Source: Lysobacter solisilvae
GTDB taxonomy: Bacteria > Pseudomonadota > Gammaproteobacteria > Xanthomonadales > Xanthomonadaceae
Assembly: GCF_016613535.2 (NCBI RefSeq)
Contig: NZ_CP071518.1
Location: forward strand, 2,914,001 to 2,978,000
Direction of reading: 5' to 3'
Length of the DNA stretch: 64,000 nucleotides
Both the position numbers and the translations under genes were made by a program. Positions 17,762-35,673 of the stretch are shown here, in pieces. The notes beneath the pieces are model-generated. The model saw only the letters and a program-made list of their open reading frames with translations, was not told the DNA's origin and did not search any database. How positions within the stretch are numbered: the stretch's first letter is position 1; every line of letters begins with the position of its first letter.

Positions 17762-19618
17762 ATGGTCGTTGCTGCGCGTGAAATTCCCGATTCCAACCTG
17801 AGCTCGATCTCGAGCGCCCACCCGGACGCCGCCACCAACTGGGTGGACCTGCTGCTGGATCGTTCCGTGCACCGGCAGCATTCGCCGGTCTATACGTTCC
17901 TCGAGAATGGAGAGGACGCCGCGGAGACGATCAACTACGGCGAATTCTGCGATCGCGTCCTGGCCCTGGCGGCGCGGCTGCGCCTGCACTGCGCTCCGCG
18001 CGACCGCGTGCTGCTGCTGTATCCGCCGTGCATCGACTACATGGTGGGCTTCTTCGCATGCCTGTGCGCGGATCTCGTCGCGGTCCCGCTGTTCCCGCCA
18101 CGCAGCGCCAAACACAACCTTCGGATCGAAGCGATCGCACGCGACTGCCGGCCGCAGGTCGCGCTCTATTCCTCGCGCCGCCAGGCGCACCGCCACGCTG
18201 CCATCGCCGAGCAGCCCGCGTTGGCCGCGATGCAGTTCATCTGCAGCGACGACGTCGCGCTCGGCGAAGCGGCGCAATGGGCCCACCCCGGTGTGGGGGC
18301 GGATGCGATCGCGTTCCTGCAATACACGTCGGGCTCCACTGGCCTGCCCAAGGGCGTGATGGTCAGCCACGCCAACCTGCTGCACAACCAGCGCATGCTG
18401 CAGGCGAGCTACCAGACCAGCCAGGACACCGCGCTGGTGAGCTGGCTGCCGATCTACCACGACATGGGGCTGATCGCGAAGATGCTGGCCTCGGTCTGGC
18501 TGGGGAGCCACGCCGTCTTCATGACGCCGGCCGTTTTCCTGCAGCGCCCGTTCCGCTGGCTGCAGGCCATCAGCCGGTATCGCGGCTATCTCAGTGGTGG
18601 CCCCAATTTTGCGTTCGACCTGTGCGTGGACAAGGTCACTGAAGCGCAACGGGAAGAACTCGATCTTTCCAGTTGGAAAGTGGCCTTCAGCGGCGCCGAA
18701 CCGATCCGCCTCGGATCGCTGGAACGGTTCGCCAGAGCCTTCGCCCCCTGCGGCTTCGAGCGCCGGGCCCTGATGCCCTGCTATGGCCTGGCCGAGGGCA
18801 CCCTCATGGTGTCGGGTGGCACGGCGGGACAGCCGCTGATAAGCAAATATGTCGACAAGGCCGAACTCACCCATCGACGCATCGCCGATGCCGCCGGCCG
18901 GGCCGGTCAGCCCATCGTGGCCTGCGGTCACACGCATGCAGACCTGGGTCAGGACGTGCGGATCGTGGACGAGGTGTCGCACCGGACCTGCGAGGCAGGC
19001 ACGGTCGGCGAGGTCTGGGTAAAAGGGCCCAGTGTCGCGCAGGGCTATTGGGGGCGCGTCGAACAGAGCCTGGAAGTCTTCGATGCGCATGTCGCCGAGT
19101 CGGGAGAGGGCGGCTTCATGCGCACCGGCGACCTGGGTTTCATCGCTGACGGACAGCTGTACATCACGGGCCGGATCAAGGACGTGATCATCGTCCGCGG
19201 CTCCAATCACTATCCGCAGGACCTGGAAGCCACGGTCGAATCGACGGATCCCGCGATCAACGCCGCTGGCGTGGCCGCATTTGGATTCCGCGACGAATGC
19301 AGCGACGAAGAGCGCGTATGCATCGTCGCCGAGATCGCCCGCACCAGCCTGCGCAAGGTCGACATGCCGGCGCTGGTCCAGGCCATCCGGCGCAGGGTCC
19401 TGGAGACGCACGAGATCGTGGTCAGCGATGTGGTGCTGATCCGTCCGAGCAGCCTGCCCAAATCCAGCAGCGGCAAGGTGCAGCGCAGCCTCTGCCGTGA
19501 ACTGTACCTGGCCAACGAGCTTGCCCTCGCTTACGGGCAGGCGCCAGGCGACGAGTCGATGCCGAGGTATGCGCCGGCACCGGCTGCCGCGCGCGTCGCC
19601 GTGGCGGAGAACGGTTAG
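17762..19618 (+). CDS. Fatty acyl-AMP ligase (FAAL) starting the polyketide-peptide line
   Basis: 618 residues from the ATG at 17762, chosen over a GTG nine bases earlier because AAGGAG is correctly spaced. Adenylate-forming enzyme: P-loop YTSGSTGLPKGVMVSHANLL near residue 188, SWLPIYHDMGLIAKML near 227, PCYGLAEGTLMVSGG near 339 and the C-terminal GRIKDVIIVRGSNHYPQDLE. These last blocks are the FAAL form, which makes an acyl-adenylate and passes it to an acyl carrier protein rather than CoA. No carrier domain is fused; the free carrier gene follows 45 bases later. It is expected to load a fatty acid onto that carrier for the synthase downstream. The chain length cannot be read from sequence. 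Confidence 0.93.
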   Translation: MVVAAREIPDSNLSSISSAHPDAATNWVDLLLDRSVHRQHSPVYTFLENGEDAAETINYGEFCDRVLALAARLRLHCAPRDRVLLLYPPCIDYMVGFFACLCADLVAVPLFPPRSAKHNLRIEAIARDCRPQVALYSSRRQAHRHAAIAEQPALAAMQFICSDDVALGEAAQWAHPGVGADAIAFLQYTSGSTGLPKGVMVSHANLLHNQRMLQASYQTSQDTALVSWLPIYHDMGLIAKMLASVWLGSHAVFMTPAVFLQRPFRWLQAISRYRGYLSGGPNFAFDLCVDKVTEAQREELDLSSWKVAFSGAEPIRLGSLERFARAFAPCGFERRALMPCYGLAEGTLMVSGGTAGQPLISKYVDKAELTHRRIADAAGRAGQPIVACGHTHADLGQDVRIVDEVSHRTCEAGTVGEVWVKGPSVAQGYWGRVEQSLEVFDAHVAESGEGGFMRTGDLGFIADGQLYITGRIKDVIIVRGSNHYPQDLEATVESTDPAINAAGVAAFGFRDECSDEERVCIVAEIARTSLRKVDMPALVQAIRRRVLETHEIVVSDVVLIRPSSLPKSSSGKVQRSLCRELYLANELALAYGQAPGDESMPRYAPAPAAARVAVAENG

Positions 19619-19663: not shown

Positions 19664-19963
19664 ATGGATGGAACACTTTCTCCGCCCGTCGCGGAGGCTG
19701 TTACGCGAGCGTGGGAGTCGATCGCCGGAATCGAGCGCTGGATCTGCGCGCACATCGCCCGCGCGACCCGGATGCCGGAGTCGGACATCGAGGTCGGACA
19801 GCCGTTTTCCCACTACGCGCTGGATTCGGTTGCCACGGTGGAACTCACGGCGGACCTGGAGGACTGGCTCGAACTGCGCCTGCCGCCGACCCTGCTGTGG
19901 GACTACCCGACCGTCGCGGCGCTCGCGCGCCACCTGCATGGACTCAAGGCACACACGCAATGA
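19664..19963 (+). CDS. Free-standing acyl carrier protein
   Basis: 99 residues. The phosphopantetheine site is Ser55 in HYALDSVATVELTADLEDWL, and WDYPTVAALARHLHGL near the end is the usual helix IV block of polyketide-type carriers. It should receive the acyl chain from the FAAL and present it to the ketosynthase of the next protein. Its stop overlaps the next start (ATGA at 19960), so it is translationally coupled to the synthase. The start has AAGGA upstream at 19651-19655. Confidence 0.92.
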   Translation: MDGTLSPPVAEAVTRAWESIAGIERWICAHIARATRMPESDIEVGQPFSHYALDSVATVELTADLEDWLELRLPPTLLWDYPTVAALARHLHGLKAHTQ

Positions 19964-22900
19964 AGAGAGCGACCATCGAGCCGATCGCGATCGTGGGCAT
20001 GGCCTGCCGCTTTCCGGGCGCCGCGTCCCTGGCGGAGTTCTGGCAACTTCTGAGTGAAGGGCGTGACGGTGTCGGCGTGGTGCCTGGCAGCCGCTGGAAT
20101 GCGGACGCGGTCTATGACGCCGATCCGAAGGCCCAGGGCAAGACCAATACCCGGCACGGCGGCTTCATCGCCGATATCGACCAGTTCGATGCGGCCTTCT
20201 TCGGCATCACGCCCCGCGAGGCCGGCCAGATGGACCCGCAGCAGCGCATCCTGCTGGAGCTGGCCTGGGAAGCGCTGGAAGACGGCGGCATCGCACCGGC
20301 CACCCTCGCCGGAACCGACGCGTCGGTGTTCGTCGGCGCCATGACGAACGACTACTTCCGGCACCAGGTAGGGGGCGAGTTCCAGCGGATCGACGTGCAC
20401 ACCGGCTCCGGCGGCGGGATGTGCATGCTCGCCAACCGGCTCTCGTACCACTTCGACCTGCGCGGGCCGAGCGCGACCGTCGATACGGCGTGCTCGTCGT
20501 CGCTGGTGGCGGTGTTCCAGGCCTGTCAGAGCCTGTGGACCGGGCAGTCGCGCCTGGCGCTAGCCGCGGGTGTGAACGTGATGCTCGATCCGGCCATCAA
20601 CGTGTTCTATACCAAGGCGGGCCTGTCCGCGCCGGACGCGCGTTGCAAGACATTCTCCGCCGCTGCTGATGGTATCGGCCGAGCGGAGGGCGCCGCGGTC
20701 GTGGTGCTGAAGCCACTGAAGGATGCCTTGGCCGACCGCGACCCGATCTACGCGATGATCCGCGGCGGCGCGGTCAACCACGATGGACGCAGCAACGGCC
20801 TGACGCAGCCGAACCGCTGGGCGCAGGAACAACTGCTGCGGCAGGCGTTCCAGCACGCGCGCGTCGATCCGCGTGAACTCCAGTACGTGGAGCTGCACGG
20901 GACGGGCACCCTGATTGGTGACCCGATCGAGGCGAACGCGCTGGGTACCGTGCTGAGCGACAACGGCGAGCGCGACGCGTGCCTGGTGGGTTCGGTCAAG
21001 ACCAACTTCGGCCACCTCGAAGCCGCTGCCGGCATAGCGGGGCTGATCAAGGTCGCGCTGGGAATTGCCGAAGGCGCGGTCCCACCGAGTCTGTGGTTCG
21101 ACGAGCCCAACCCGCATATCGACTTCGATGCATTGCCGCTCCGGGTCAACACCCGCCTTTCGCCATGGGAAGCCATCGACAGCAGGCGCGTGGCAGGGGT
21201 GAGTTCTTTCGGGCTCGGCGGCTCGAACGCGCATCTGGTGCTGCAGTCGGCACCTGCGCCGCGCGCGCCTGCGCGTCGCAGCCGGGCAACCGGACTGCAG
21301 TGCCTGCTCCTGAGTGCGCGTTCGCCAGCCGCGCTGCGCGCGAAGGCGAAGGCCGTCATGCGTTGGCTGCAGGACCACCCTGACGCCCCAATGCCGGCTG
21401 TCTGCGCGACCAGCCTTCGGCGGACAGGCATCCATGAGCACCGGCTCGCGCTGCTGGGCGACGATGCGGCGTCGATGATCGACGCGCTGAGCGCAGCTGG
21501 CATGGACCGGGTGCACCCGCGTGTCCTGCAGGACCGATACCGGCCCTCGCAACATGCGCTGGTACTGGCCGTGCCGGAGCTGGCGGTCGTCGACTGGAAC
21601 GTGCTGTCCGGTGTCGCGGCGCTGCCGAAGGCACGGGAAGCGTGGACAGCGTGCCGCAACGTGTTTGGCCGCCGGAAGACGGCGTTGCCGGCAGTGGATG
21701 CGCTGGACGCGAACGTGCGGGTCACCATCAATGACCGTGCCTTCAGGGCCTGGCACTTCTCCGCCCAGTACGCGCTCGCTCGCCAGATGCTGGAGGGCGC
21801 GCAGCAACTGGAGGGCGTGTTCGCCGACGGACTGGGCCAGCTGGCCGTGCTCTGTGCGGCCGGTGCCATCGAGTTGACGGAGATTCCGGACCTCCTCGAC
21901 GCTGAAAGCCCGTCGTTGGAGCTCGATGCCAGCTTCGCCTATCCGATGCGGTGCGAGTTTTCCTCCGGCTGCGACCCGCGCGGGATCGCTCTGGACCATC
22001 GCGGCGATGGCGCATCCTGGCAGCTGAGATTGGGGCGCTCATCGCTGTGTGGCGCCGATGTTGTCGTGCTCGGGCCTCTCCCGGCGTTCGCCGCGGAGGG
22101 TGAAGCACAGTTCCACCCCCAGCCGTCGGGCGATGGCTGGGTTCGGGTTTTCGCGCAGCTGGCCATGCGCCATGCGCTCGTCTGGCGTGCCTGGGCCGAA
22201 GATGAGGGCTTCGTCCGGCTACCGTCGTATCCCTGGCAGCGGGAGTCGTACTGGTTGGCCCCGATGGACGCTTCACCGGCTGGCGCGACCCCCGCGCGGC
22301 CGGCGCCTGATCAGGGAGACTCGCTGCTGGGCGCGCGACTCGACGCGCCGTCGCCCGCCTGGACGCGCACGCTCACGCCAACGAAGCTTGCGTACCTGCG
22401 CGACCACCAGGTGCAGGGTGCGCTGATCCTGCCCGGCGCCGGTTATGTCGAACTCGGCCTGGCGGTGCACGCCGCCGTGCGCGGCACGCTGCCCGCATCG
22501 CTCGCCGGATTGGAATTCCACAGCGCGCTGGTGATTGACCCAGCCTCGCCGCCGGCGATGCACGTCTCGCTGGACGAGGCCGCGGGCACGTACTGCGTGC
22601 ACAGCCGCCAGTCCGCCGGTTGGGAGGTCCATGCACGTGGCCATCTCGCATCGGAAGCCGATGCGCCGGTGCGCATCGATCTGCCTGCGCTTCGCGACCT
22701 GCACTCCCGGCATGTTGACGCACAGGCGCATTACGCCGACATGGCGGAGCGCGGGTTCGGTTACGGGCCGGCGTTCCAGGGCATGCGCGAACTGTGGCTG
22801 TCGGCGGACGGTGAGCGAGCACTGGCGCACATCGAACGCCCCGGCGTGCTGGGGCCTGTGGGTGAAGACGATCGCCTGCATCCGGCCCTGTTCGACGCAT

Positions 22901-25089
22901 CCCTGCAGTCGATGCTGGCGACACTCACCGCACGCGGGGACCGCGAGCTCTACATCCCGACGGGGATCGAGCAGCTCAGCTTCTACCGCCCGGCTCCTGC
23001 CAGCTTCTGGTGCCACGGTGGACTCCGGCAGGCAGGGCAGGGACGTATCGAAGGCGACATCGTCCTCTTCGACGATACCGGTGAAGTGATTGCACTGGCC
23101 CGGGGCGTGAGGGCGCAGGCCCTCACGCGGGGCAACCGATCCGACGTCCCGCGAGCCGATGACGTGTTCCTTGAGTGGGATTGGCAGCCGCAGTCGGCAG
23201 CGACCGGAAGCGTCGGAGGAAACTGGATTGTCATGGGCCCTCCTGCGCGGGTGCCTGCACTGGCCGAGGCGCTGTTCCCTGCGGGAGCCGATGGCGTCGT
23301 GCGCGTGGAGTTGGCTGACAGTTACAGCAGGAGCGGGACGTCGGCTTTCAGCGTGGCGCGGAACAGTCCCGCAGACATTGAAGCCGTATTGCAGGCTCTT
23401 GATGGTGATTCGTTCGCTGGTCTGGTCTATGTCGCCGAGGAGGCTGGCGGCGCGCAGGTGGGCGGGGCATCCCTGGTTCCCGTCGCCCAACACGAATCGC
23501 TGCTGGCGCTGATCCGGGGGCTGGCGCACCGCGGCCGCGCGTGCCGCCTTGTCGTGGCGACACAGGGGCTGCTCGCCGTCGACGCCGTGGACGCGGGCGC
23601 TGCCCAAGCCATGGGCAGTTGTGGCCATGCGCCGATGGTGGGCCTGCTGCGGGTGGCGACGAACGAGTACCCGCAACTCAAGCTGCGACTGGTCGACGCT
23701 GCTCCGGACGTGACGCAGCCCGCTCTGGCACAGGAAATCCTCAGTGATTCGCCCGAAGACGAAGTGGCACTGCGTGCGGCCGGCCGTTTCATACCGCGTT
23801 TGCGTGGCCTGCCATCGAGCGCGCTGGCGGCGCGGGCCGGGGCAATCGTCCGCAAGGACGGTACCTACCTGATCACCGGCGGCTACGGCGGTTTCGGTCT
23901 GGAACTGGCGAACTGGCTGGCGCGGGAAGGGGCGACCAATCTCGTGCTCGTCGGCCGAAGCGGCGCGGTCACGCCCGCGGCGCTGCAGTGTCTCCGGGAT
24001 CTGCGCGCCCAGGGAGTGTCCGTGCTCGAGGCACGTGCCGATGTGGCTGATGAGGCGCAGATGGCCGAACTGCTGCGAAACCTGCGCCGTGACCTGCCGC
24101 CTTTGAGGGGCGTCTTCCACGCAGCCGCCGTGCTCGACGACGCGCCGCTGGATCAATTGCGGCCTGATCAGATTGCGCGCGCGATGGAAGCCAAGGCTCG
24201 CGGGGCTTGGCATCTGCACCGGATGACGCAGTCCGATGAGCTGGACCATTTCGTCCTGTTCTCCTCCATCGCATCGCTGCTGGGAGGTGCAGGGCAGGGG
24301 TCGTATGCCATGGCCTGCGCCTATCTCGACGCGCTGGCGCGCTACCGCCGCCTGCGCGGCCAACCGGGCCTGTCACTCAACTGGGGTGCGCTGGCCAACG
24401 TGGGCATGGCCACGCGCTTCGGCGATGTGGGGCGCTACCTCGGCGGCACGGGTGTCTTGATGTTCGACCCTGCCGAAGCCATGCACCTCATGGCGTCCGC
24501 GCTGAGGTGGCCGCGGGCCGAACTCGGCGTGGCACGCATGGACTGGGCGCAATGGGCGCGCAGCTATCCCGCGTGGGCCGCTTCACCGAAGTACGCCGGG
24601 CTGGTGGCCGGCCTGCCGCCCCAGGACGCGTCGATGACCGCGGTGCGCGCGGACCTGCTCGCGCTTGCCGGGCCGGCCCGCACTAAGCACATCGTCGAGG
24701 CCCTGGCCACGCTGCTGGCCCAGGTGATGGAGGCTGAGGCCAGCGACATCGATCGCGGCGTGCCGCTGCCGAGCCTGGGTCTGGATTCGCTCATGGCGAT
24801 GGACGTTGTGGTCGGCATCGAGGACAGCTTCGGGCTGAAGGTTCCCATGCTGATGCTGATGAAGGGCACCAGCCTGAACCAGCTGGCCGAACACGTCAGC
24901 AGCAGCCTGGAGGACGCCACAGACGCCGACACGGTCGCCGCCGCTCCATCCGGCCTCGTACTCGACCAGCTGCCTGAAACCCTGGACCTCGACGAGGCCG
25001 AGCGCCTGATCGCCCGGCTCGGGGAACTGGCTGACAACGACGTGGAGCGGCTGCTCCAGCAGATCATGCATGCAGAGGAATCCCGATGA
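19960..25089 (+). CDS. Type I polyketide synthase, KS-(inactive AT)-DH-KR-ACP
   Basis: 1709 residues. KS, about 8-430: DTACSSSL with Cys178, HGTGTLIGDPIEANAL, KTNFGHLEAAAGIAGL. About 445-760 is a recognisable KS-AT linker and AT remnant: the serine motif GHSLGE has become ADGLGQ (Gly624 where Ser belongs), the GQGSQ block is missing and the region is short before LPSYPWQRESYWL. DH, about 795-1060: DHQVQGALILPGAGY with His816, LHPALFDASLQSM. KR, about 1300-1480: GGYGGFG, LDD (B type), Tyr1449, but Cys1453 where Asn is usual. ACP, Ser1610. A roughly 50-residue tail may dock the next protein. It should add one malonate-derived unit and leave an alpha,beta-double bond, with malonyl supplied in trans. 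ATGA overlap with the NRPS. Confidence 0.93.
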   Translation: MKRATIEPIAIVGMACRFPGAASLAEFWQLLSEGRDGVGVVPGSRWNADAVYDADPKAQGKTNTRHGGFIADIDQFDAAFFGITPREAGQMDPQQRILLELAWEALEDGGIAPATLAGTDASVFVGAMTNDYFRHQVGGEFQRIDVHTGSGGGMCMLANRLSYHFDLRGPSATVDTACSSSLVAVFQACQSLWTGQSRLALAAGVNVMLDPAINVFYTKAGLSAPDARCKTFSAAADGIGRAEGAAVVVLKPLKDALADRDPIYAMIRGGAVNHDGRSNGLTQPNRWAQEQLLRQAFQHARVDPRELQYVELHGTGTLIGDPIEANALGTVLSDNGERDACLVGSVKTNFGHLEAAAGIAGLIKVALGIAEGAVPPSLWFDEPNPHIDFDALPLRVNTRLSPWEAIDSRRVAGVSSFGLGGSNAHLVLQSAPAPRAPARRSRATGLQCLLLSARSPAALRAKAKAVMRWLQDHPDAPMPAVCATSLRRTGIHEHRLALLGDDAASMIDALSAAGMDRVHPRVLQDRYRPSQHALVLAVPELAVVDWNVLSGVAALPKAREAWTACRNVFGRRKTALPAVDALDANVRVTINDRAFRAWHFSAQYALARQMLEGAQQLEGVFADGLGQLAVLCAAGAIELTEIPDLLDAESPSLELDASFAYPMRCEFSSGCDPRGIALDHRGDGASWQLRLGRSSLCGADVVVLGPLPAFAAEGEAQFHPQPSGDGWVRVFAQLAMRHALVWRAWAEDEGFVRLPSYPWQRESYWLAPMDASPAGATPARPAPDQGDSLLGARLDAPSPAWTRTLTPTKLAYLRDHQVQGALILPGAGYVELGLAVHAAVRGTLPASLAGLEFHSALVIDPASPPAMHVSLDEAAGTYCVHSRQSAGWEVHARGHLASEADAPVRIDLPALRDLHSRHVDAQAHYADMAERGFGYGPAFQGMRELWLSADGERALAHIERPGVLGPVGEDDRLHPALFDASLQSMLATLTARGDRELYIPTGIEQLSFYRPAPASFWCHGGLRQAGQGRIEGDIVLFDDTGEVIALARGVRAQALTRGNRSDVPRADDVFLEWDWQPQSAATGSVGGNWIVMGPPARVPALAEALFPAGADGVVRVELADSYSRSGTSAFSVARNSPADIEAVLQALDGDSFAGLVYVAEEAGGAQVGGASLVPVAQHESLLALIRGLAHRGRACRLVVATQGLLAVDAVDAGAAQAMGSCGHAPMVGLLRVATNEYPQLKLRLVDAAPDVTQPALAQEILSDSPEDEVALRAAGRFIPRLRGLPSSALAARAGAIVRKDGTYLITGGYGGFGLELANWLAREGATNLVLVGRSGAVTPAALQCLRDLRAQGVSVLEARADVADEAQMAELLRNLRRDLPPLRGVFHAAAVLDDAPLDQLRPDQIARAMEAKARGAWHLHRMTQSDELDHFVLFSSIASLLGGAGQGSYAMACAYLDALARYRRLRGQPGLSLNWGALANVGMATRFGDVGRYLGGTGVLMFDPAEAMHLMASALRWPRAELGVARMDWAQWARSYPAWAASPKYAGLVAGLPPQDASMTAVRADLLALAGPARTKHIVEALATLLAQVMEAEASDIDRGVPLPSLGLDSLMAMDVVVGIEDSFGLKVPMLMLMKGTSLNQLAEHVSSSLEDATDADTVAAAPSGLVLDQLPETLDLDEAERLIARLGELADNDVERLLQQIMHAEESR

Positions 25090-28000
25090 ACCCGGTAGTC
25101 GAATCCCAGGACACACCCCGCACCGATGGCCTCACTGATCGCCGCGCACTCCTGGCCGAGGCATTGCGCAGGAAGGCACGCCAGCACACCGTACTCTGCC
25201 CGCTGTCGCATGGGCAGAAGGCCTTGTGGTTCTTGCATCGCAGCGCGCCGGACAGCTGCGCGTACCACGTGTCCTTCAGTGCGCGCATCCGTTCCGTCCT
25301 GGATATCCAGGCCTTGCGACGCGCGTGCCAGGCGCTGGTCGATCGTCACGCCGCTCTTCGCGCCGTGTTCCACCTGCGCGACGGGGAACCCGTCCAGGAG
25401 ATCGCTGGCGATCGCGAGGTGCTGTTCCGGGTGAGCGACTGCTTCGGCCGCAACGGCAACGAACTGCACGACCGCGTGCAGGCCGCCTACCGTGAGCCCT
25501 TCGACCTCGAGCGGCAGCCGCCGTTCCGTGTCGACCTGTTCCGCTGCGACGCGCAGGAGCACGTGCTGCTCATCACGGTCCATCACATTGCCTACGACGC
25601 CTGGTCGCTCTGGCTCAATCTGGACGAGCTTGGCCAGTTGTACGCGGCGGAGATTGCCGGGCGGGCGCCTGCGCTGCCCGTGCTCGAATGTTCGTATCGT
25701 GACCACATCAATCGGCAGGCGCAGATGCTGGCCGGCCCGGAAGGCCAGAAGCTCTGGCGGTTCTGGCAGTCGGAACTGGCCGGCGAGCTTCCCACGCTGG
25801 TGCTGAACACCGATCGTCCCCGTCCTGCCGTGCAGACCTATGCGGGTGCGTCTCTGCGCTTCGCGATGGGCCCGTCGCGGTCGGCGCGCGTGCGCAAGCT
25901 GGCGCAGAGCTGCGGAGTCACGCCCTTCGTGCTGCTGCTGGCGGCCTTCCAGGTCCTCTTGCACCGCTACTCGGGCCAGGACGAGATCATCGTCGGTTCT
26001 CCGACCACCGGGCGGGGGGATCCGCAGATGGCCGCGGTTGCCGGCTACTTCGTCAATCCCGTGGTGCTGCGCGCGAATCTGGCCGACAACCCCGCCTTCA
26101 ACGACTTTCTCGAACGCGTGGCGCATACCGCAATCAGCGCGATGCAGCACCAGGACTTTCCGTTTCCGCTGCTGGTCGAACGCCTGCAGCCGCGACGGGA
26201 TCCGGCGTTTGCGCCCCTTTTCCAGGTGTCCTTCGTCTACCAGAAGCCGCAGCGGTCCAGCGGCGCGATCGACTGGCTGGGATGGACCAGCCAGCCCGGT
26301 AGCCGCGTGTGCTGGGGCGGACTGGAGATCGAGTTCTTCGACCTGCCGCAGCAGGAGGGCCAGTTCGATCTCGAGCTGGAAGTGCTCGATGCGGGCGAGG
26401 AGCTGCATGCCTCGTTCAAGTACAACACCGACCTGTTCGACGTCCAGTCGCTGATGCGGATGGAGTCCTGCCTGCTGGCGCTGCTGGACGGCATCTGCGA
26501 CGACCCGGCCCGACCCGTGCGGCAGCTGCCGCTGATGCCCGCCGATGCGATGGCGGCACTGGGGAACCTGCTTCCGCGAGTGCCGAGCAGACCTGGCGAC
26601 GCCCGGTGCCTGCATCGCATCTTCGAAGAGCAGGTATTGGCCACGCCGGATGCCGTCGCCATCACCGACGGCGACAGGCAGGTGACGTACGGCGAACTCA
26701 ACGTGCATGCCAACCGCCTGGCGCATTACCTGATCGGGCAGGGCGTCGGACCCGGGACGCGCGTGGGACTGTGCCTGGAGCGATCCTGGCGCATGCTCGC
26801 CGCGATGCTCGCGACCGTGAAGGCGGGCGGCGCATACGTGCCGATCGCACCTGAGGCACCGCAGGAGCGCAACGTCTTCATCCTGCAGGACAGCCAGGCC
26901 ACCATCCTGCTGACCGAAAGCGCCGTCGGTACGGCCCTGGCGCAGGGTTGTGCCCAGGTGCTCTACCTGGATCGCGAGTCGGAGCAGCTCGCCGGCCAGT
27001 CCAGCATCAATCCGGACCTGGACATCACTGTCGAGGACCTGTTGTACGTGATCTACACCTCGGGTTCGACCGGCAAACCCAAGGGCGCGCTGGTCACCCA
27101 CTTCAACGTCGCCCGGCTGTTTACCGCGACCGACGCCTGGTTCCGGTTCGACGGCAACGACGTCTGGACGGTTTTCCACTCTTTCGCCTTCGACTTCTCG
27201 GTGTGGGAGATCTGGGGCGCGCTGCTCCATGGTGGCCGCATGGTGATCGTGCCGTACCTGGTGTCCCGCGCACCGGAGGAATTCGTGGCACTGATGAATG
27301 CGCAGGGGGTAACGGTACTGAACCAGACCCCGTCGGCATTCCGCCAGTTCATGGAAGCAGAGCAGCGTGTCCCGCTCATCGCGGGCTCGCCGCTGCGATG
27401 CGTGGTCTTCGGCGGAGAGGCGCTGGACCTGCGCATGCTGTCCGCGTGGTACGCGCGACACGACGAGGCCCACCCGCGCCTGGTCAACATGTACGGCATC
27501 ACCGAAACGACGGTGCACGTCACCTATCGCCCCCTGGGACGGGCGGACGTGGATTCCGGCAGGAGCGTGATCGGCGAGCCGATCCCCGACCTCCACGTGC
27601 ACGTGTTCGACGAGGCCCTGCAGCCTGTGCCCGAAGGCGTGCCTGGCGAAATGTTCGTGGCCGGCGACGGGCTGTGTCGCGGCTACCTCGACCGGCCGGA
27701 ACTGACGGCGCAGCGCTTCCTGACGCGCAGGCGCTCCGATGGCGGCCAGATGCGCCTGTACCGCACCGGCGACCTGGCCCGGCGCATGCCGGGTGGGGAC
27801 ATCGAATACCTTGGCCGGGTTGATGACCAGGTCAAGATCCGCGGCTTCCGCATCGAGCTGGGCGAGATCGAGGCTGCGCTGTCGTCGCATCCGGAAGTGG
27901 CGGCATGCGTGGTGGTCGTCCGCGAAGACGATGGCGACAAGCGCCTCGTGGGCTATGTGGTGGGGCCGGCGAGTGCCAGCAGCGCGCCCTCGACTCCCGG

Positions 28001-29366
28001 CCTTCGCGACCACCTGATGTCGCGCCTGCCCGAATACATGGTGCCGACCGCGTTCGTGGCGCTGGACCGGCTGCCGCTCAACTCGAACGGCAAGATCGAC
28101 CGCCGGGCGCTGCCTGCGCCTGTGCTTGAGCGCGACGTCCGCGACGGAGGGTTCGTGCCACCGCGCGATGCCATCGAGCATCGGATCCAGGCGCACTGGG
28201 AAGCGGTGCTCAAGGTGCATCCTGTCAGCGTCCGCGACAACTTCTTCGAAATCGGCGGGCATTCCCTGCTCGCGGTCAACCTGATCACGCGCCTGGAGCA
28301 GGAATTCGGCCTGTCGATGCCCATGGCCACGCTGTTCCGCCGGCCCACGATCGAGCAGCTGGGCCAGCTGCTTCGCGACAATCCCGACACCGCAGGCTCG
28401 TCTCTGCTGGTGCCCATCCAGCCCCAAGGCGAGGGTCGGCCCTTCTTCTGCGTGGCGGGCGGTGGTGGCAGCGTGGCCTACTACTATCCGCTTGCGCAGC
28501 AGATGGGCAGCGCACGGCCGTTCTTCGGGCTGCAGGCTGTGGGCCTGGACGGGGACTGCGAACCGCTGACCAGCGTCGAAGCCCTGGCCCAGGCGCACCT
28601 GGCCGCCATCCGCTCCGTCCAGCCCCGCGGACCGTACCTGCTGGGTGGGCACTGTTTCGGCGGCTCCGTCGCGTTCGAGATCGCACAGTGCCTGCGACGC
28701 GAAGGCGAGGAGGTGGAACGCCTGGTCCTGATCGACGTGCCCAGCCGCTATCTGGAGGGCATGGATACCGCGCAGCCGGATGACGCTGCGTGGATCGCGC
28801 GGTTGGCTGCCATCGTCCGCGAGTCCTCTGGCACCGACCTGCAACTCACGCAGGAGCTGCTGCGTCCGTTGGATCCTGCGGACCAGCTCGCGCTGCTGAA
28901 TGAGCGCATGCAGGCCGCCGGTTTCATGCCGCCGGGCGCCGATGTCGCCAAGGTCAGGGGCCTGTTGCGCGTGTTCGTGGCCAATAGCCTGGCCCGCTAT
29001 TCGCCGCGGGACGTCCTCCCCGTTCCCATCGCCCTGTTCCGTGCCGGAGAACATCATCCGGACTACGACTTCACGCCCGCCGACGATCCGGGCCGTTCCA
29101 TCGCCCATTCCACCCTCGGCTGGCAGGCCATGTCCTCGCAGCCAGTGGCGGTGCATGTCGTGCCGGGCAACCACATCACGATGCTGTCGCCCCAGCACGC
29201 CGCGGCGCTGGCGCAGGGCGTGGCCGAAGCCCTCGCCGGGCCCTCCGGCAGCGGCAAGGGCGTGCCACGGCCCGTCCTGCTCGGCGAGCCGACGCAGGAC
29301 GAGTGGATCTCCCTGGTCCCCGACGCCCGCGAACGGCAGGAACGTGCCGCGCGCATGGAAGGCTGA
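25086..29366 (+). CDS. Non-ribosomal peptide synthetase C-A-PCP-TE, threonine-type A domain, Cys thioesterase
   Basis: 1426 residues. C domain, about 40-480: HHIAYDAWSLW with His166 and His167, joining the polyketide acyl chain to the amino acid. A domain, about 508-1000: YTSGSTGKPKGALVTH, NMYGITETTVH, YRTGDL, and the final Lys in NSNGKIDRRAL. The specificity residues read D-F-W-N-V-G-M-V-H-K, one step from the threonine code DFWNIGMVHK. PCP: FFEIGGHSLLAVNL with Ser1060. TE, about 1105-1400: nucleophile motif LLGGHCFGGSVAFE, so Cys1190 replaces Ser; probable His1363 in VPGNHITMLS. Cys-type TEs are rare and include those forming the beta-lactone of obafluorin and the beta-lactam of sulfazecin. 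The product is inferred as an N-acyl threonine, perhaps as beta-lactone. Confidence 0.93.
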   Translation: MNPVVESQDTPRTDGLTDRRALLAEALRRKARQHTVLCPLSHGQKALWFLHRSAPDSCAYHVSFSARIRSVLDIQALRRACQALVDRHAALRAVFHLRDGEPVQEIAGDREVLFRVSDCFGRNGNELHDRVQAAYREPFDLERQPPFRVDLFRCDAQEHVLLITVHHIAYDAWSLWLNLDELGQLYAAEIAGRAPALPVLECSYRDHINRQAQMLAGPEGQKLWRFWQSELAGELPTLVLNTDRPRPAVQTYAGASLRFAMGPSRSARVRKLAQSCGVTPFVLLLAAFQVLLHRYSGQDEIIVGSPTTGRGDPQMAAVAGYFVNPVVLRANLADNPAFNDFLERVAHTAISAMQHQDFPFPLLVERLQPRRDPAFAPLFQVSFVYQKPQRSSGAIDWLGWTSQPGSRVCWGGLEIEFFDLPQQEGQFDLELEVLDAGEELHASFKYNTDLFDVQSLMRMESCLLALLDGICDDPARPVRQLPLMPADAMAALGNLLPRVPSRPGDARCLHRIFEEQVLATPDAVAITDGDRQVTYGELNVHANRLAHYLIGQGVGPGTRVGLCLERSWRMLAAMLATVKAGGAYVPIAPEAPQERNVFILQDSQATILLTESAVGTALAQGCAQVLYLDRESEQLAGQSSINPDLDITVEDLLYVIYTSGSTGKPKGALVTHFNVARLFTATDAWFRFDGNDVWTVFHSFAFDFSVWEIWGALLHGGRMVIVPYLVSRAPEEFVALMNAQGVTVLNQTPSAFRQFMEAEQRVPLIAGSPLRCVVFGGEALDLRMLSAWYARHDEAHPRLVNMYGITETTVHVTYRPLGRADVDSGRSVIGEPIPDLHVHVFDEALQPVPEGVPGEMFVAGDGLCRGYLDRPELTAQRFLTRRRSDGGQMRLYRTGDLARRMPGGDIEYLGRVDDQVKIRGFRIELGEIEAALSSHPEVAACVVVVREDDGDKRLVGYVVGPASASSAPSTPGLRDHLMSRLPEYMVPTAFVALDRLPLNSNGKIDRRALPAPVLERDVRDGGFVPPRDAIEHRIQAHWEAVLKVHPVSVRDNFFEIGGHSLLAVNLITRLEQEFGLSMPMATLFRRPTIEQLGQLLRDNPDTAGSSLLVPIQPQGEGRPFFCVAGGGGSVAYYYPLAQQMGSARPFFGLQAVGLDGDCEPLTSVEALAQAHLAAIRSVQPRGPYLLGGHCFGGSVAFEIAQCLRREGEEVERLVLIDVPSRYLEGMDTAQPDDAAWIARLAAIVRESSGTDLQLTQELLRPLDPADQLALLNERMQAAGFMPPGADVAKVRGLLRVFVANSLARYSPRDVLPVPIALFRAGEHHPDYDFTPADDPGRSIAHSTLGWQAMSSQPVAVHVVPGNHITMLSPQHAAALAQGVAEALAGPSGSGKGVPRPVLLGEPTQDEWISLVPDARERQERAARMEG

Positions 29367-29479: not shown

Positions 29480-30466
29480 ATGAAAAGGATCTGGAGTTCA
29501 ATGCGAGTGGCGGTGTTGGCCATGGCCGCCTGCCTCGTGCCCGCCGCCGCTTCGGCGGCGCCACCGGAAGAGCTCATCATCATCAGCGGCTCGCTGTCCG
29601 ACGTGGGCAACTACTACGCGGTCCACGGTTCGTTCGGCCCCCCGTTCGCTGACAACCGCAGCACCAACGGTCCCAACCTGGACGACTACTTCGCCGAGCT
29701 GCTGCATTTCGACAACAAGCCATCGATGCACCTGATCGGTCCGGTGCTCGGCAACAACTTCGCCGTTTTCCAGTCGCTCGCCCGTGGCCATGGACCTGAA
29801 GACCTGCCGGCGCAGATCCAGGCGTACCTCAACTCGCACGGCGGCCGCGCCAACCCGAAGGCGCTGCATCTGCTGCTGATCGGCGGCTCGGACGTCATCG
29901 ACGCGCTGCTCAACCCGAACGACACGGCTTCGTCGCAGATCCTCGACCAGACCGTGGCCGGCATGGAAAACGCCCTGCGCACACTGGTCAACTCGGGTGC
30001 GAAGCGGATCTACGCGCCGAACTTCACCGACCTGGGCTACACGCCTTACGCGCTCAAGACCCATTCGGTCGCCCGCGCCACCCGCATCAGCCGCGAGTAC
30101 AACCGCAAGTACGCGGCCATGCTCGACCGCTTCGAGCGCCGCCTGCACCTGCAGGGCCGGCACGACGTGGAGCTGATCCGCTGGGACTTCTTCGCCTATA
30201 CCCACCGACTGTTCCGCCACATCGAAGACTTCGGCTTCACCAACTCGACCCAGTCGTGCATCGACCTGATCCCGAGCGGTGGCTGCCAGCTGGATCGATT
30301 CGTCTTCCTCTCGGACTTCTTCCCGACCTCGCGTACGCACCAGCTGTTTGCCACTGCGATGGCGCAGAACCTGATCGATCGTGACCGCTGCCGCGACAAC
30401 AACGGCCGCTTCGACACCAAGGGCGTGTGCCGCAACCTGCTCACCGGCGCGGCGATGACTCCGTGA
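29480..30466 (+). CDS. Secreted SGNH/GDSL-like protein with altered catalytic residues
   Basis: 328 residues, start at 29480 with AAGGAG eight bases upstream. Signal peptide over residues 1-27 (cleavage after AAASA). The fold follows GDSL esterases/lipases: block I reads IISGSLSDVGNYYAVHG, so the nucleophile Ser stays but the GD before it is SG; block III reads LLLIGGSDVIDALL where GGND is usual; the C-terminal D-x-x-H-P-T block reads SDFFPTSRTHQLF, with Phe in the catalytic His position. It may be a binding protein or a diverged enzyme. It lies 113 bases after the NRPS on the same strand, so it could act on, or protect from, the product in the periplasm. Confidence 0.75.
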   Translation: MKRIWSSMRVAVLAMAACLVPAAASAAPPEELIIISGSLSDVGNYYAVHGSFGPPFADNRSTNGPNLDDYFAELLHFDNKPSMHLIGPVLGNNFAVFQSLARGHGPEDLPAQIQAYLNSHGGRANPKALHLLLIGGSDVIDALLNPNDTASSQILDQTVAGMENALRTLVNSGAKRIYAPNFTDLGYTPYALKTHSVARATRISREYNRKYAAMLDRFERRLHLQGRHDVELIRWDFFAYTHRLFRHIEDFGFTNSTQSCIDLIPSGGCQLDRFVFLSDFFPTSRTHQLFATAMAQNLIDRDRCRDNNGRFDTKGVCRNLLTGAAMTP

Positions 30467-30510: not shown

Positions 30511-31143
30511 ATGAGCAAGGCACAACGTGGGACGCGTCCGGCACGCATGGTCCTGGCGACCCTGGCCATCCTGGCCGCGACAGGCAGCGCCGCGCAGGAA
30601 GGGCAGGGCAGCACCCAGGCGCATGGCGCTGCCGCCCTTCACGGCGCCTATGGGTTCTCGCTGTCCCAGAGTTGCGTCCGTACGCCGTTCCAGGCACCGC
30701 CGGCTGCCGGCTTCGATCCGGCCACCAAGCAGTTGCTGGTCAATGGCGAGTTCGTCAGTGGCTTTGGCAGCGGCGTCCTGCGCTTCGGACGCGACGGCGT
30801 GGCGACTCTCGAGGACGGCCTGATCACCGAGATCACCTCCAGCCAGGTGGCGTCGGCGCAGACGCCGGTTTCGCCGGGAACGCGATTCGAATGCGTCGGC
30901 CGCCACAGCGTGTCGGTGGGCAACCGGGTCGCCGTCAAGCTCACCTGCGAGGCCGCGGCCCCGCCAGGCCTGCGCGTGGTGATCGATCCGGTCGAGTTCG
31001 AAGGCTTCGTCGGCGCCGGTCGGACCCTGAACCTCAATACCGTCAAGCGTGACCTGCATACCGTGACCGTCTACAGCGGCGCCACGGCGCTGCAGCAACG
31101 GCAGCGCGTGTGCCTGCAGAGCCTGACGCTCAACAAGCTGTAA
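30511..31143 (+). CDS. Secreted protein of unknown function
   Basis: 210 residues from the ATG at 30511, with GGAG ten bases upstream. Residues 1-28 form a signal peptide (MVLATLAILAATGSAAQEG). The mature part is beta-rich, with AALHGAYGFSLSQSCVRT near the N-terminus and three further Cys residues (in FECVGRHS, KLTCEAA and QRVCLQSL) that could form two disulfides in the periplasm. No known family is recognised. It follows the SGNH gene by 44 bases and belongs to the same run of genes. A strong hairpin follows the stop. Confidence 0.7.
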   Translation: MSKAQRGTRPARMVLATLAILAATGSAAQEGQGSTQAHGAAALHGAYGFSLSQSCVRTPFQAPPAAGFDPATKQLLVNGEFVSGFGSGVLRFGRDGVATLEDGLITEITSSQVASAQTPVSPGTRFECVGRHSVSVGNRVAVKLTCEAAAPPGLRVVIDPVEFEGFVGAGRTLNLNTVKRDLHTVTVYSGATALQQRQRVCLQSLTLNKL

Positions 31144-31245: not shown

Positions 31246-33624
31246 ATGAACGTGATCAAGTACCTGCTGGAACTCCATGCCCGGTCTGTCGTCAGGCACC
31301 GTTGGTGGATCCTCGTCCTGGGCCTGCTGGCCACCCTCGCGCTGGGCGCGCAGATCGGCAGCCTGCGCATCAACAACGATCCGGACCTGTGGGCACCGCA
31401 GAACCACGAGTTCACCCGCACGACCCGCGAACTGGAGCGCGTGTTCGGCGGCCGGAACTTCACCATCATCGGCCTCTACCCGACGTCCGGGGACGTCTAT
31501 CAGCCGGGCATCCTGAAGAAGGTGCAGGCGATCCAGCAGGCGATCGAGGCGATGCCGCAGGCGGTGCGGCGAAATGTCGTCAGCCTCGGGGCGCGACGGG
31601 TCAAGGACATTTCGGCGACCAGCGAAGGCATGGCCGCGCGGGAGATGCTCGACCCCATCCCGACGACGCCGGCGGAATTCGCAGCGCTCCGGCAGGCCGT
31701 CGCCCGCAACCCGATCTACATCGACGCGTTGGTGTCATCGGATGGGCGCGCCGCGGCCATCGTGGCGGATTTCACAGTGGATGGCCGCGATGCCGCGTAC
31801 GCGCCCCTGCATGAGCGAATCCAGGAAGTGCTGGCACCGCACCGCGACGCGACCGTCGAGATCGTGGTGGGTGGGCAGCCGGTCAATGCCGCGCACCTGG
31901 AGATGGCAATGCAGAAGATGCCGGTGTACTTCGGCATTGCATTCCTGATCATCCTGGCGGTCCAGTATTTCGCATTCCGAAGCGTCCAGGGCATGGTGCT
32001 GCCATTGGCGACCGGACTGCTGGCGGTGGTCTGGGGGCTGGGCACGATGGCGCTGGCCGGCGTGTCGATGGACGCACTGAACACGACCACGCCGATCCTC
32101 ATCATGGCGGTGGCCACTGGCCACTCCGTGCAGATACTCAAACGCTATTACGAGGAGCTGGCCCTACGTGCACCCGGGGCCATCGACCTGCGCCAGGCCA
32201 GCCGCGAGGCCGTGGAGGCCTCCCTGCGACTGGTAGCGCCGGTCATGGCGATCGCCGGCTTGATCGCGGCTGCGGCCTTCTTCTCCCTGCTGGTCTCCGA
32301 CGTGGAAATGATCCGCAACTTCGGCCTGTTTGCCGGGTGCGGCATCCTGGCGGCGATGGTGATCGAACTGACGATCATCCCGGCGCTGCGCGCAATCCTG
32401 CCGCCGAAGCTGCCGCCCGCACTGCGTCGCCAGGATGTCCTGGACCGCGGGCTGGCCCGGCTCGGAGTGTGGCTGACCGATCCGCGGCATGCCCGACGCG
32501 TGGTGGGGGCCTGCCTGGTAATGCTCGCCGTCGTCTCGCTCGGCGCCTTGCGCATCGAGGCCGACAGCAGCTTCAAGCAATACTTCCAGCCCGACAGCCC
32601 GGTGCGGCAGGCGGACGCCCGCTTGAACGCCAGTTTTGGCGGTACCGATTCAGTGGCGTTCCTGATCGAAGGGCCCACGCCCGACAGCATGAAGGATCCC
32701 CGCGTGCTGCTTGCGATGAGGCATCTGCAGGACTTCCTTGAGGCACAGCCGCATGTGGGCAAGACCCAGTCCGTCGCCGACCTGCTTGCGCGGATGAACC
32801 AGGCGATGCACGGCGATGATCCGTCCCGGAACAGCGTGCCCACCGCGCCCAACCTCGCCGCCCAGTACCTGTTGCTGTACTCGCTCTCCGGCGATCCCGA
32901 GGACTTTGACAACCTGGTCGACGCGTCCTATCAGCGTGCCGTGGTGTGGGCGTACCTGAAGACCGACAGCACCACCTACGCGCTGGACCTGTACCAGCGC
33001 AGCCTGCCCCTGATCGCCCGGGAGTTCCCGCCCGGTTTCAATGTGCGGCTCGGCGGAAGCCTGCCGCAGACCGTGGCGTCGAACGAATCGCTGGTCGCGA
33101 CCAAGACCTCGAACATCCTTCAGATCGCGTTGATCGTGTTCGTCCTGTCGAGCCTGGCCTTGCGCTCGCTGGTGGGCGGGCTGCTGGTCGTCGTGCCGCT
33201 GGCCGCCATCGTGCTGATGAACCTGGGCCTGATGGGATGGCTGGGCGTGCCGCTGGACATGGGTACCGCCTCCATCACTGCCATGGTCACCGGCATCGGC
33301 GCCGACTACGAGATCTACATGCTCTACAGGCTGCGCGAGGAATACCGGCGCCACGCGGACCTGGACGGCGCACTGCAGAGGTCGCTGGCGACGTCAGGCA
33401 AGGCCGTGCTGCTGGTGGCCATCTCCATTGCCGGAGGCTATGCGGCGCTGCTGATCTCGGACTTCGAGTTCTACCCCCGGTTGGGCTCGACCATGATGAT
33501 CACCATGGGCGCGAGTGCCGTGCTGTCGCTGCTTTTCCTGCGGGCCATGGTGGCGCTGATCCGCCCGCGCTTCATCACCGGCGTCACCGTTCCGGTCGGC
33601 GCCCTTCCAGTTTCCACGTCCTGA
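31246..33624 (+). CDS. MMPL/RND-family lipid exporter
   Basis: 792 residues. The layout is the RND duplicate of the MMPL type: one membrane helix near residues 20-38, a periplasmic loop, five helices about 232-400, then a second helix about 425-445, a second loop and five helices about 620-780. The motif GIGADYEIYMLYRLREE in the second half is the MMPL form of the proton-relay helix. Transporters of this group move lipids or lipidated molecules out of the inner membrane, as MmpL proteins do for FAAL-PKS lipids in mycobacteria. Its place after the FAAL-PKS-NRPS genes and before a LolA-like protein suggests it exports the product. Confidence 0.88.
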   Translation: MNVIKYLLELHARSVVRHRWWILVLGLLATLALGAQIGSLRINNDPDLWAPQNHEFTRTTRELERVFGGRNFTIIGLYPTSGDVYQPGILKKVQAIQQAIEAMPQAVRRNVVSLGARRVKDISATSEGMAAREMLDPIPTTPAEFAALRQAVARNPIYIDALVSSDGRAAAIVADFTVDGRDAAYAPLHERIQEVLAPHRDATVEIVVGGQPVNAAHLEMAMQKMPVYFGIAFLIILAVQYFAFRSVQGMVLPLATGLLAVVWGLGTMALAGVSMDALNTTTPILIMAVATGHSVQILKRYYEELALRAPGAIDLRQASREAVEASLRLVAPVMAIAGLIAAAAFFSLLVSDVEMIRNFGLFAGCGILAAMVIELTIIPALRAILPPKLPPALRRQDVLDRGLARLGVWLTDPRHARRVVGACLVMLAVVSLGALRIEADSSFKQYFQPDSPVRQADARLNASFGGTDSVAFLIEGPTPDSMKDPRVLLAMRHLQDFLEAQPHVGKTQSVADLLARMNQAMHGDDPSRNSVPTAPNLAAQYLLLYSLSGDPEDFDNLVDASYQRAVVWAYLKTDSTTYALDLYQRSLPLIAREFPPGFNVRLGGSLPQTVASNESLVATKTSNILQIALIVFVLSSLALRSLVGGLLVVVPLAAIVLMNLGLMGWLGVPLDMGTASITAMVTGIGADYEIYMLYRLREEYRRHADLDGALQRSLATSGKAVLLVAISIAGGYAALLISDFEFYPRLGSTMMITMGASAVLSLLFLRAMVALIRPRFITGVTVPVGALPVSTS

Positions 33625-33634
33625 GGACCGCGGC

Positions 33635-34423
33635 ATGAACTTTCGCCTTTCTTCACTCCCGTTCGCCCTCGTGCTGGCCTTGTTCGCCACGTCGGCCCAC
33701 GCCCTCGATGCGTCCCAGATCATGGAGCGCAACTTCGCGGCGACCAAGGTCAGCGGTTTCACCGGCGAGGTCACCCTCAGCCTGGTGAACGCCCGCGATG
33801 AGAAGCGCGTGCGCCGGATGTCGGTGCGGTCGCGCCTGCGCGAAAACGGGATCGACTCCGCCGTGCTGACCCGCTTCGGCCAGCCCGCCGACATCAGGGG
33901 CACCGGTTTCCTGCAGATCGAGAACGGCGCGGCGGACGACGACATCTGGGTCTACCTCCCGGCGCTGGGCAAGACGCGCCGCCTGGCTTCCAACAACAAG
34001 CGCGACAGCTTCTTCGGCACCGATTTCGCCTACGGCGACATCCTCCTGCCGGCCGTCGACGAATACGAGCACAAGCTGCTGCGCGAAGAGGCCGTCGATG
34101 GGGCCGATTGCCACGTCATCGAATCGCGTCCCCGGGAGGCCAGGACGCGCGACGACACCGGCTATAGCCGCAAGATCAGCTGGGTTGACTCCCGCACGTT
34201 CGTCGAGCGGAAGGTCGAGTATTACGACACGCGGGACAAGCTGCTGAAGACCCAGCTGACGTTCGACGTGAAGCCCGAAGAACCCGGCCGGTTCATGCCC
34301 ATGCGCCGGCAGATGACCAATCACCAGACCGGGCACCGGACGCTCTACCAGTTCGACCGCTTCGCCGTGGAAAAGGCGCTCAAGGAGTCGGACTTCAGCG
34401 TGCGCCGGCTCGAATCGAACTGA
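33635..34423 (+). CDS. LolA-like periplasmic lipid carrier (outer-membrane lipoprotein-sorting family)
   Basis: 262 residues. Signal peptide 1-23 (LALFATSAHA). The mature part matches the outer-membrane lipoprotein-sorting/LolA-like family often found beside MMPL transporters: DASQIMERNFAATKVSGFTG, then DDDIWVYLPALGKTRRLASN, DSFFGTDFAYGDI and YSRKISWVDSRTFVERKVEY. LolA folds are half-open beta barrels that shield acyl chains while crossing the periplasm. It lies 10 bases after the MMPL gene and 5 before the barrel gene. The lipid ligand is inferred from the operon to be the FAAL/PKS/NRPS product. Confidence 0.85.
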   Translation: MNFRLSSLPFALVLALFATSAHALDASQIMERNFAATKVSGFTGEVTLSLVNARDEKRVRRMSVRSRLRENGIDSAVLTRFGQPADIRGTGFLQIENGAADDDIWVYLPALGKTRRLASNNKRDSFFGTDFAYGDILLPAVDEYEHKLLREEAVDGADCHVIESRPREARTRDDTGYSRKISWVDSRTFVERKVEYYDTRDKLLKTQLTFDVKPEEPGRFMPMRRQMTNHQTGHRTLYQFDRFAVEKALKESDFSVRRLESN

Positions 34424-34428
34424 CCGCG

Positions 34429-35673
34429 ATGCGGGCTTCGGCCATGAGATTGATGGCGCCGCTCGGCATCGTTGCGGCGCTGGCTTCTCCAGCAGCGGCC
34501 TTCGCGGCGGATCTCTCCGGTTCGCTGCGGCTGTCGTACTTCTCTTCCTCGAGGGACCTAGATGACGTCCGTGGGGTCCAGGCACTGACGGGCGAGATCG
34601 AATGGAAGCAGGACATCGGCCCGGCGCATCGGCTGGAAGTGAAGGGTCGCTCGACGCTGTTCGGGCATGGCAGCCTGGCGCGTACCCGCACGCACTGGAG
34701 TTCGGCGCTCTGGCACGCACGGTTCGAGCATGCGGACCTGCGGTTGGGCCAGCAGAAGATCCGCTGGGGCAAGGCCGACGGCATCAACCCGACGGACTTC
34801 TTCACGCCGGTCGACTACACCACCGTGCTGCCGCTGGAGGACGACCGCTATCTGTCCGTGCCAGCCGCCCGGTTGGACCTGCATCTGTCCGACGTGGACT
34901 CGCTGTCGATGGTGGTTGGCGACGGTTTCACCCCCTCACGCATTCCCTGGCCGAGGCCTTCACCGGTCACCGTCCGGGACGACGAGCCGGACGCCGGCCA
35001 GCTCGGCGCCCGGTGGACCCACACCGGCGAGCGCCAGGACTGGTCACTGTCGGCGTTCCGCGGTCATTCGACGCTCCCGTTGCTGCACGCGCAGGAACCA
35101 GGGTCGCCCGGCGAAACGGATCCGGACTTCGTCCGCCACTACGCCCGCGTGCAGGGCTTTGGCGTCGATCTGGCGCGCAGTGTGGGCGCTTTCGGGTTCC
35201 GTGCCGAACTGGCGTATGTCGTGCCCCGCGGTTACAACGCCAGGCAGTCAATCCGGTCCAACTGGCACCTGGTGGCGGGGGTCGATCGATCCTTCCCTGC
35301 GTGGAATTTCAACGTCCAGGCCGTGGTGCGGCACACGCCGGACTTCGAGCCCATCGACGGAAACCTCCCGGACGCCGTGCGCTTTGCCGCCCTGCAGAAC
35401 GGGTTGATCCACGGCCAGCAGGCGCGCTGGGTGCATGGCATGACCGCGCGGGTGGCGGCGGACTGGCGTAACGACACCCTGCAGACCGAACTGCTCGCCG
35501 TCGCCCAGTTCTCGCCGGACAACTACCTGCTGCGGCCGCTGGTGACCTACGCATGGTCGGACCGCGTCAAGCTCCGGGCGGGCGCGGAATACTACCGAGG
35601 GCCGGCCGACACCTACTTCGGCGCGTTGGAGCGCAACCGCACCGCGTTCGTGGAGTGGCAGCTGTTCTATTGA
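34429..35673 (+). CDS. Outer-membrane beta-barrel of the export cassette (DUF1302-like)
   Basis: 414 residues. Signal peptide 1-27 (ALASPAAAFA). The rest is amphipathic beta strands of about ten residues (WHARFEHADLRLGQQKI, VKLRAGAEYYRG), closing with FVEWQLFY, whose final aromatic residue is the outer-membrane barrel signal. The block GQQKIRWGKADGINPTDFFT resembles the conserved part of DUF1302-type barrels, which commonly sit with RND and LolA-like genes. It is the last gene of the plus-strand run; its last 7 bases overlap the convergent histidine kinase. Probable exit or insertion site for the lipid product. Confidence 0.75.
   Translation: MRASAMRLMAPLGIVAALASPAAAFAADLSGSLRLSYFSSSRDLDDVRGVQALTGEIEWKQDIGPAHRLEVKGRSTLFGHGSLARTRTHWSSALWHARFEHADLRLGQQKIRWGKADGINPTDFFTPVDYTTVLPLEDDRYLSVPAARLDLHLSDVDSLSMVVGDGFTPSRIPWPRPSPVTVRDDEPDAGQLGARWTHTGERQDWSLSAFRGHSTLPLLHAQEPGSPGETDPDFVRHYARVQGFGVDLARSVGAFGFRAELAYVVPRGYNARQSIRSNWHLVAGVDRSFPAWNFNVQAVVRHTPDFEPIDGNLPDAVRFAALQNGLIHGQQARWVHGMTARVAADWRNDTLQTELLAVAQFSPDNYLLRPLVTYAWSDRVKLRAGAEYYRGPADTYFGALERNRTAFVEWQLFY

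Follow-up and report, generated by a model that had tools for sequence, protein, structure and literature searches.

The window analysed here, 64,000 nucleotides of Lysobacter solisilvae (contig NZ_CP071518.1, positions 2,914,001 to 2,978,000), contains a nonribosomal peptide synthetase (NRPS) gene at 25086-29366, whose product unites condensation (C), adenylation (A), carrier (T) and thioesterase (TE) domains in one chain and thus represents a termination module. Its TE carries a cysteine nucleophile and belongs to a deep clade in which this cysteine is fixed and the accompanying A domains almost without exception carry threonine, threonine-like or serine codes. At the level of sequence, this pairing of a fixed Cys with codes for beta-hydroxy amino acids is the strongest evidence on how the product is released. 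We tentatively propose that the product is an N-acyl-threonine beta-lactone, a reading that we hold to be possible, though short of probable.

The termination module and its catalytic residues

All five Pfam domain matches within the NRPS exceed the curated cut-offs. The parts of the module are as follows.

Residues 38-492: Condensation domain (Pfam)
Residues 513-868: AMP-binding domain (Pfam)
Residues 927-1003: AMP-binding_C domain (Pfam)
Residues 1033-1096: PP-binding domain (Pfam)
Residues 1119-1377: Thioesterase domain (Pfam)
26622..28094 (+): adenylation domain, code DFWNVGMVHK (threonine), from Pfam and alignment to the ten code positions
28404..29237 (+): thioesterase domain taken for tree and model (residues 1107-1384)
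28653..28655 (+): codon of the nucleophile Cys1190 (Cys in 58/58 clade rows)
28734..28736 (+): codon of the triad Asp1217, position I (clade rows: Asp in 57/58, Asn in 1)
29055..29069 (+): H-P-D-Y-D loop, His1324 to Asp1328, a signature of the clade
29172..29174 (+): codon of the triad His1363 (His in 58/58 clade rows)

The code for threonine is DFWNIGMVHK and that for serine is DVWHLSLIDK. We take the code of the window to be that for threonine, with Ile replaced by Val. The preliminary description of this DNA had called the A domain threonine-type, and alignment to the usual ten positions supports a domain predicted to activate threonine. Its reading of Cys1190 as the nucleophile in the place of GHSxGG was equally borne out, since the motif is GGHCFGG (GGHCFGGS with the next residue) and the Cys recurs throughout the clade. 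An ordinary type I TE has a Ser nucleophile, which the window TE lacks. A sequencing error or a local quirk is ruled out by the presence of Cys in every clade row.

A structure model was built from nine TEs (mean pLDDT 92.9; in domain numbering Cys84, Asp111 and His257 correspond to Cys1190, Asp1217 and His1363). In it, the triad Asp follows directly after strand 104-110, the strand after the nucleophile helix, which is the location termed position I. The only clade row without Asp at this place is P0038, with Asn. The loop that follows strand 209-214 carries His218 and Asp222, close to the Asp site of the Cys thioesterases ObiF and SulM. Acidic residues are frequent in this loop: column 216 is Glu or Asp in 51/58 rows, column 220 Asp or Glu in 56/58 and column 222 Asp in 56/58; Glu in column 216 likewise recurs in several of the Ser TEs listed from outside the clade. 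Judged from these columns, the acids of the loop may take over the triad role of "position II", and one guess is that loop residues act as a second base.

A clade of Cys thioesterases paired with threonine and serine codes

Two sources provided the relatives. About 5.8 billion proteins were searched and the 7995 candidates with most words in common were scored; of 180 matches the 120 listed were used. Two peptide patterns, scanned against a genome collection of 84,980 species, yielded 34 loci. TE pieces of at least 180 aa were kept (88 of 121). The second tree comprised 96 TE rows, with 15 of the 34 loci added and seven of eight long-branch rows left out, the TE of the Acinetobacter baumannii protein AB3403 among them. 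It places the window TE in a clade of 58 rows with SH-aLRT support of 97, and the same clade was present in the first tree (51 protein rows, SH-aLRT 87); both trees are quick and unrooted. As P0039 and L009 are near-identical proteins from one species, there are 57 independent clade rows. The clade TEs are about 39-71% identical to that of the window.

The A codes of the clade are strikingly uniform in kind: 29 rows read DFWN(I/V)GMVHK, one DFWSIGMVHK, 13 DVWN(I/S)AMVHK, 14 the serine type DVWHxSLxDK and one DWWSIGMVVK. Threonine, threonine-like or serine codes thus account for 57/58 rows, against 4 of the 22 readable codes among related TEs outside the clade. Within the first tree, at least four switches between Thr and Ser are counted (50 of 51 rows, the unclear row being excluded and Thr-like codes taken as Thr), and no clear shift to a non-hydroxy amino acid occurs. 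A Cys in all rows joined to such codes is the pairing that a beta-lactone-forming TE would need.

The Cys thioesterase had been described as rare. This holds insofar as Cys is a fixed mark of the clade, but of 44 related TEs outside it 9 have Cys too, and GHCFG occurs in 20 of 27 non-clade loci, the scan itself having selected for the motif. The idea that GHCFG is diagnostic of beta-hydroxy amino acids was rejected, for the 20 non-clade GHCFG loci include ten readable codes and none of these is Thr or Ser. Two GHCFG proteins outside the clade are a condensation-carrier-TE protein without an A domain, from an Anaerolinea metagenome-assembled genome (L019 305-2824), and a carrier-TE protein following a highly reducing polyketide synthase (PKS), from a Rhizonema metagenome-assembled genome (L023 9674-10831).

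A column was taken as a signature where at least 90% of the clade rows share its residue and no more than one in four of the 44 outside rows do. The signature columns are Ala18, Cys84, Pro113, Trp130, His218, Asp220, Tyr221 and Asp222. Their counts include those of Ala18 (55/58 inside versus 1/44 outside), Tyr221 (53/58 versus 1/44), His218, which is His1324 (57/58 versus 2/44), and Asp222, which is Asp1328 (56/58 versus 4/44). Many outside rows lack the H-x-D-Y-D loop altogether.

Because the neighbours of the clade in the tree are mostly Ser TEs, Cys is suggested to have arisen separately in it, the direction of change being not proven by an unrooted tree. For the preliminary description, a TE that groups with ordinary hydrolytic Ser enzymes and owes its Cys to a local change would have counted against a beta-lactone. 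The outcome is mixed: the neighbours are mostly Ser TEs, but the Cys is a constant trait throughout a deep clade and no local change.

A clade member was found in 1 of 297 genomes of the family and in 1 of 398 of the order, in both cases the window's own. In the family scan 33/297 genomes pass 1e-30, the own match scores 458 bits and the next 191.5, and the genus mates G038 and G074 gave no match. The phylum scan matched 2 of 398 genomes, and the three matches of the other genome are GHSFG Ser TEs. A class-wide MbtH search, aimed at finding MbtH-fused NRPS, matched 11 of 369 genomes, with a longest open frame of 181 aa. Elsewhere in the genome of the window, at 1650954-1652575, two TE matches lie side by side in different reading frames, and one falls within an NRPS-like frame of 3544 aa.

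Known Cys thioesterases and the release reaction

ObiF (ObiF1) of obafluorin is, as in the window, a Cys TE behind a module acylating a beta-hydroxy amino acid. Without its Cys no beta-lactone is formed, and exchanging the Cys for Ser leads mainly to hydrolysis; ObiF and SulM group with type II TEs and have the triad Asp shifted to "position II", and position I of ObiF1 is Gly (Gly1173) (PMC6668435, PMC11298585). In ObiF, an Asp like that of EntF reportedly interferes with loading of the Cys (PMC6668435). The window TE has the Cys nucleophile of the ObiF/SulM type but does not share the absence of the position-I Asp. The suggested kinship to ObiF was not supported and was rejected on account of this Asp (57/58) together with a low profile score and fold rank, by both of which ObiF1 stands far below AB3403.

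The SulM TE of sulfazecin shares with the window the Cys nucleophile and, if a beta-lactone is formed there, an attack from the beta position on a thioester; the monobactam made by its Ser variant is rapidly hydrolysed by that variant (PMC11298585). According to the descriptions in the same source, it differs in forming a beta-lactam, in its sulfamate nucleophile, in the position-II Asp and in having Gln-Cys-Asn where the window has His-Cys-Phe. SulM is not among the 60 of 82 rows listed in one of the two rankings, nor among the 50 rows listed in the other, which is no proof of distance.

The closest solved relative by profile score and fold is AB3403 (A1S_0115) from the A. baumannii A1S_0112-0119 operon (PDB 4zxh, 4zxi). 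It has the same C-A-T-TE order, a Cys nucleophile (GGWCFGG) and the position-I Asp (PMC11298585). Its operon shares with the window cluster a fatty acyl-AMP ligase (FAAL)-like enzyme, a free acyl carrier protein (ACP) and an RND exporter; it differs in its glycine A domain and, as described, in lacking a PKS (PMC5376624). In the first tree the AB3403 TE fell outside the Cys clade on a long branch of unsure placement, and it lacks the H-x-D-Y-D loop. The BulbE TE of bulbiferamide also combines Cys with Asp at the ordinary position, differs in closing a macrolactam through an indole nitrogen, and yields only hydrolysis as a Ser variant (PMC11536411).

Several of these facts speak against a beta-lactone. 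Unlike ObiF, the clade retains Asp at position I; the nearest solved structure is AB3403, whose Cys TE follows a glycine module (PMC5376624), so a beta-lactone cannot be deduced from the Cys alone; and in BulbE, Cys with a position-I Asp serves macrolactam formation (PMC11536411). To the same side belong the unclear code of P0022, the DVWNxAMVHK type (13 of 57 codes), whose substrate is inferred, the Ser TEs just outside the clade that also have Thr or Ser codes (P0050, P0057, P0071, P0073), and the fact that no beta-lactone resistance gene was recognised among the cluster genes.

Because of the position-I Asp, AB3403 and BulbE, two other reactions have to be considered. Plain hydrolysis, by which the TE would free an open-chain N-acyl-threonine as surfactant or signal lipid, is the simplest chemistry; it would suit a clade lying among mostly Ser TEs, a triad Asp in its ordinary place and an exporter fit for a lipid. 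We nevertheless deem it unlikely: Ser variants of the ObiF, SulM and BulbE TEs hydrolyse, which makes a Cys fixed in 58/58 rows hard to explain, and the restriction to Thr and Ser would need a separate reason. Transfer to an external nucleophile (an amine, a thiol or an alcohol) would produce an amide or ester of N-acyl-threonine; it appears rather unlikely, as it too leaves this restriction unexplained and no amine-supplying gene was seen among the cluster genes scanned.

The pairing of the fixed Cys with Thr/Ser codes across the clade favors a reaction that uses the beta-hydroxyl. One such reaction is the formation of an oligomer lactone, in which two chains would be linked through attack of the threonine hydroxyl of one on the thioester of the other. 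Enterobactin, bacillibactin and serratamolide are precedents, and the single C-A-T-TE module of the window fits the architecture of those systems. Oligomerization needs a beta-hydroxy amino acid too and so accounts for the restriction; for the Cys it accounts less well than a beta-lactone does, which favors the latter, and we regard oligomer release as quite improbable.

For the beta-lactone, we infer the following course. The FAAL would load a fatty acid onto the ACP, the PKS may extend it by one unit derived from malonate with the help of a malonyl transferase in trans, and the NRPS would join the acyl chain to L-threonine. The acyl-threonyl chain would pass from the carrier to Cys1190, whereupon the threonine beta-hydroxyl would attack the Cys thioester and release the N-acyl-threonine beta-lactone. 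The H-x-D-Y-D loop may contribute a further base or give the pocket the form needed for four-membered closure. The product would be exported by the MMPL system, and a catalytically dead SGNH protein encoded next to the NRPS may bind it outside the cytoplasm. The sequence itself shows the order of domains, the threonine code, the residues of the Cys-Asp-His triad, the pairing across the clade and the conserved neighbour; each chemical step and the roles given to the loop and to the SGNH protein are our interpretation. A wider proposal, that a separately evolved lineage of Cys TEs (GHCFG with H-x-D-Y-D) closes beta-lactones of N-acyl-threonine and N-acyl-serine while the dead SGNH protein of its gene clusters holds the product, reactive towards serine hydrolases, or guards against it, is in its entirety somewhat unlikely.

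Should a beta-lactone be the product, release through a four-membered ring would have evolved more than once and could work with Asp at the usual triad position, although ObiF and SulM had led to the view that its displacement matters. Such an enzyme would also offer a compact way of making lipid beta-lactones, a type of warhead aimed at serine hydrolases, and the clade, its loop and the pseudo-SGNH neighbour would serve as a search signature for more. Even with a different product, the clade raises a sharp question, namely what ties a Cys thioesterase to beta-hydroxy amino acids. Among the matches listed for open-access titles and abstract openings on N-acyl-threonine/serine beta-lactones, Cys thioesterases and FAAL-PKS-NRPS clusters, which include obafluorin and sulfazecin work, the clade is not described. 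The excerpts of PMC11253843 and PMC11837247 contain nothing on the window cluster.

The surrounding gene cluster

The NRPS gene sits in a same-strand (+) run that extends from the FAAL at 17753 to the end of the DUF1302 gene at 35673, in a genome scanned as one contig of 3.93 Mb.

17753..19618 (+): fatty acyl-AMP ligase (FAAL-like), 621 aa (Pfam AMP-binding 6.6e-64, AMP-dom_DIP2-like 6.2e-15)
19664..19963 (+): free-standing acyl carrier protein, 99 aa (Pfam PP-binding 3.8e-16)
19960..25089 (+): PKS with ketosynthase (KS), degenerate acyltransferase (AT), dehydratase (DH), ketoreductase (KR) and ACP, in this order (Pfam)
25086..29366 (+): NRPS C-A-T-TE, 1426 aa (Pfam)
29480..30466 (+): secreted-looking SGNH-fold protein, 328 aa, a pseudo-hydrolase without catalytic His
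30511..31143 (+): hypothetical protein with signal-peptide-like start (by eye) and no Pfam match (scanned from 30427)
31246..33624 (+): MMPL/RND-type exporter (Pfam MMPL 7.3e-40)
33635..34423 (+): LolA-like outer-membrane lipoprotein-sorting protein (Pfam LolA_like 3.4e-55)
34429..35673 (+): DUF1302 protein (Pfam DUF1302 3.2e-9), perhaps an outer-membrane partner

The SGNH fold of the protein at 29480-30466 was confirmed. Compared with the SGNH hydrolases PlaA and ChoE, it has Phe for the catalytic His of DxxHPT and SG for the GD of the GDS motif. The His is absent from the window protein, from 7/7 loci and from 35/35 near homologues, and present in 2/2 distant homologues. An SGNH-fold protein without this His directly follows the NRPS in L009, L010, L015, L016, L017, L018 and L020, and in these seven the nucleophile Ser is lost as well. 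Matches listed for SGNH pseudoenzymes in gene clusters include nothing on the neighbour in the window.

The PKS, which probably starts at the ATG at 19960, was compared with those of L009, L010, L015, L016, L017 and L020. All six keep the AT serine motif GHSVGE, which in the window has become ADGLGQ, and the AT region (about 21.5-22.3 kb) is by eye roughly 100 aa shorter than theirs. The KS, DH and KR motifs are retained, except that in the KR motif YxxxN (about 24.3 kb) the Asn of all six relatives is replaced by Cys. The PKS's own AT looks dead from its sequence, which would make the PKS dependent on a malonyl transferase supplied in trans; two further AT domains occur in the genome, both outside the cluster. 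An AT domain at 3013736-3014554 (-), about 36 kb past the window, lies within a 3096-aa frame that is perhaps a second PKS. Tetramate (Dieckmann) release was judged unlikely because the KR and DH motifs are largely present, the KR Asn being Cys.

The FAAL-like ligase, at most 46% identical to regions of cyanobacterial genomes, would activate the fatty acyl starter. It was rejected as part of a conserved core, since at E 1e-20 it has a strong match in none of seven clade genomes and a weak one in one (Skermanella). Because of this and the loss of the AT motif, the FAAL starter seems to have taken over from self-loading in the window's line. The MMPL exporter was likewise discarded as conserved core, with no match to it in the 7 clade loci (flanks up to 10 kb); L009 and L010 have AcrB-type pumps in its place. 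Adjoining the cluster on the opposite strand, at 35667-37807 (-), are two genes that by appearance resemble a sensor kinase and a response regulator.
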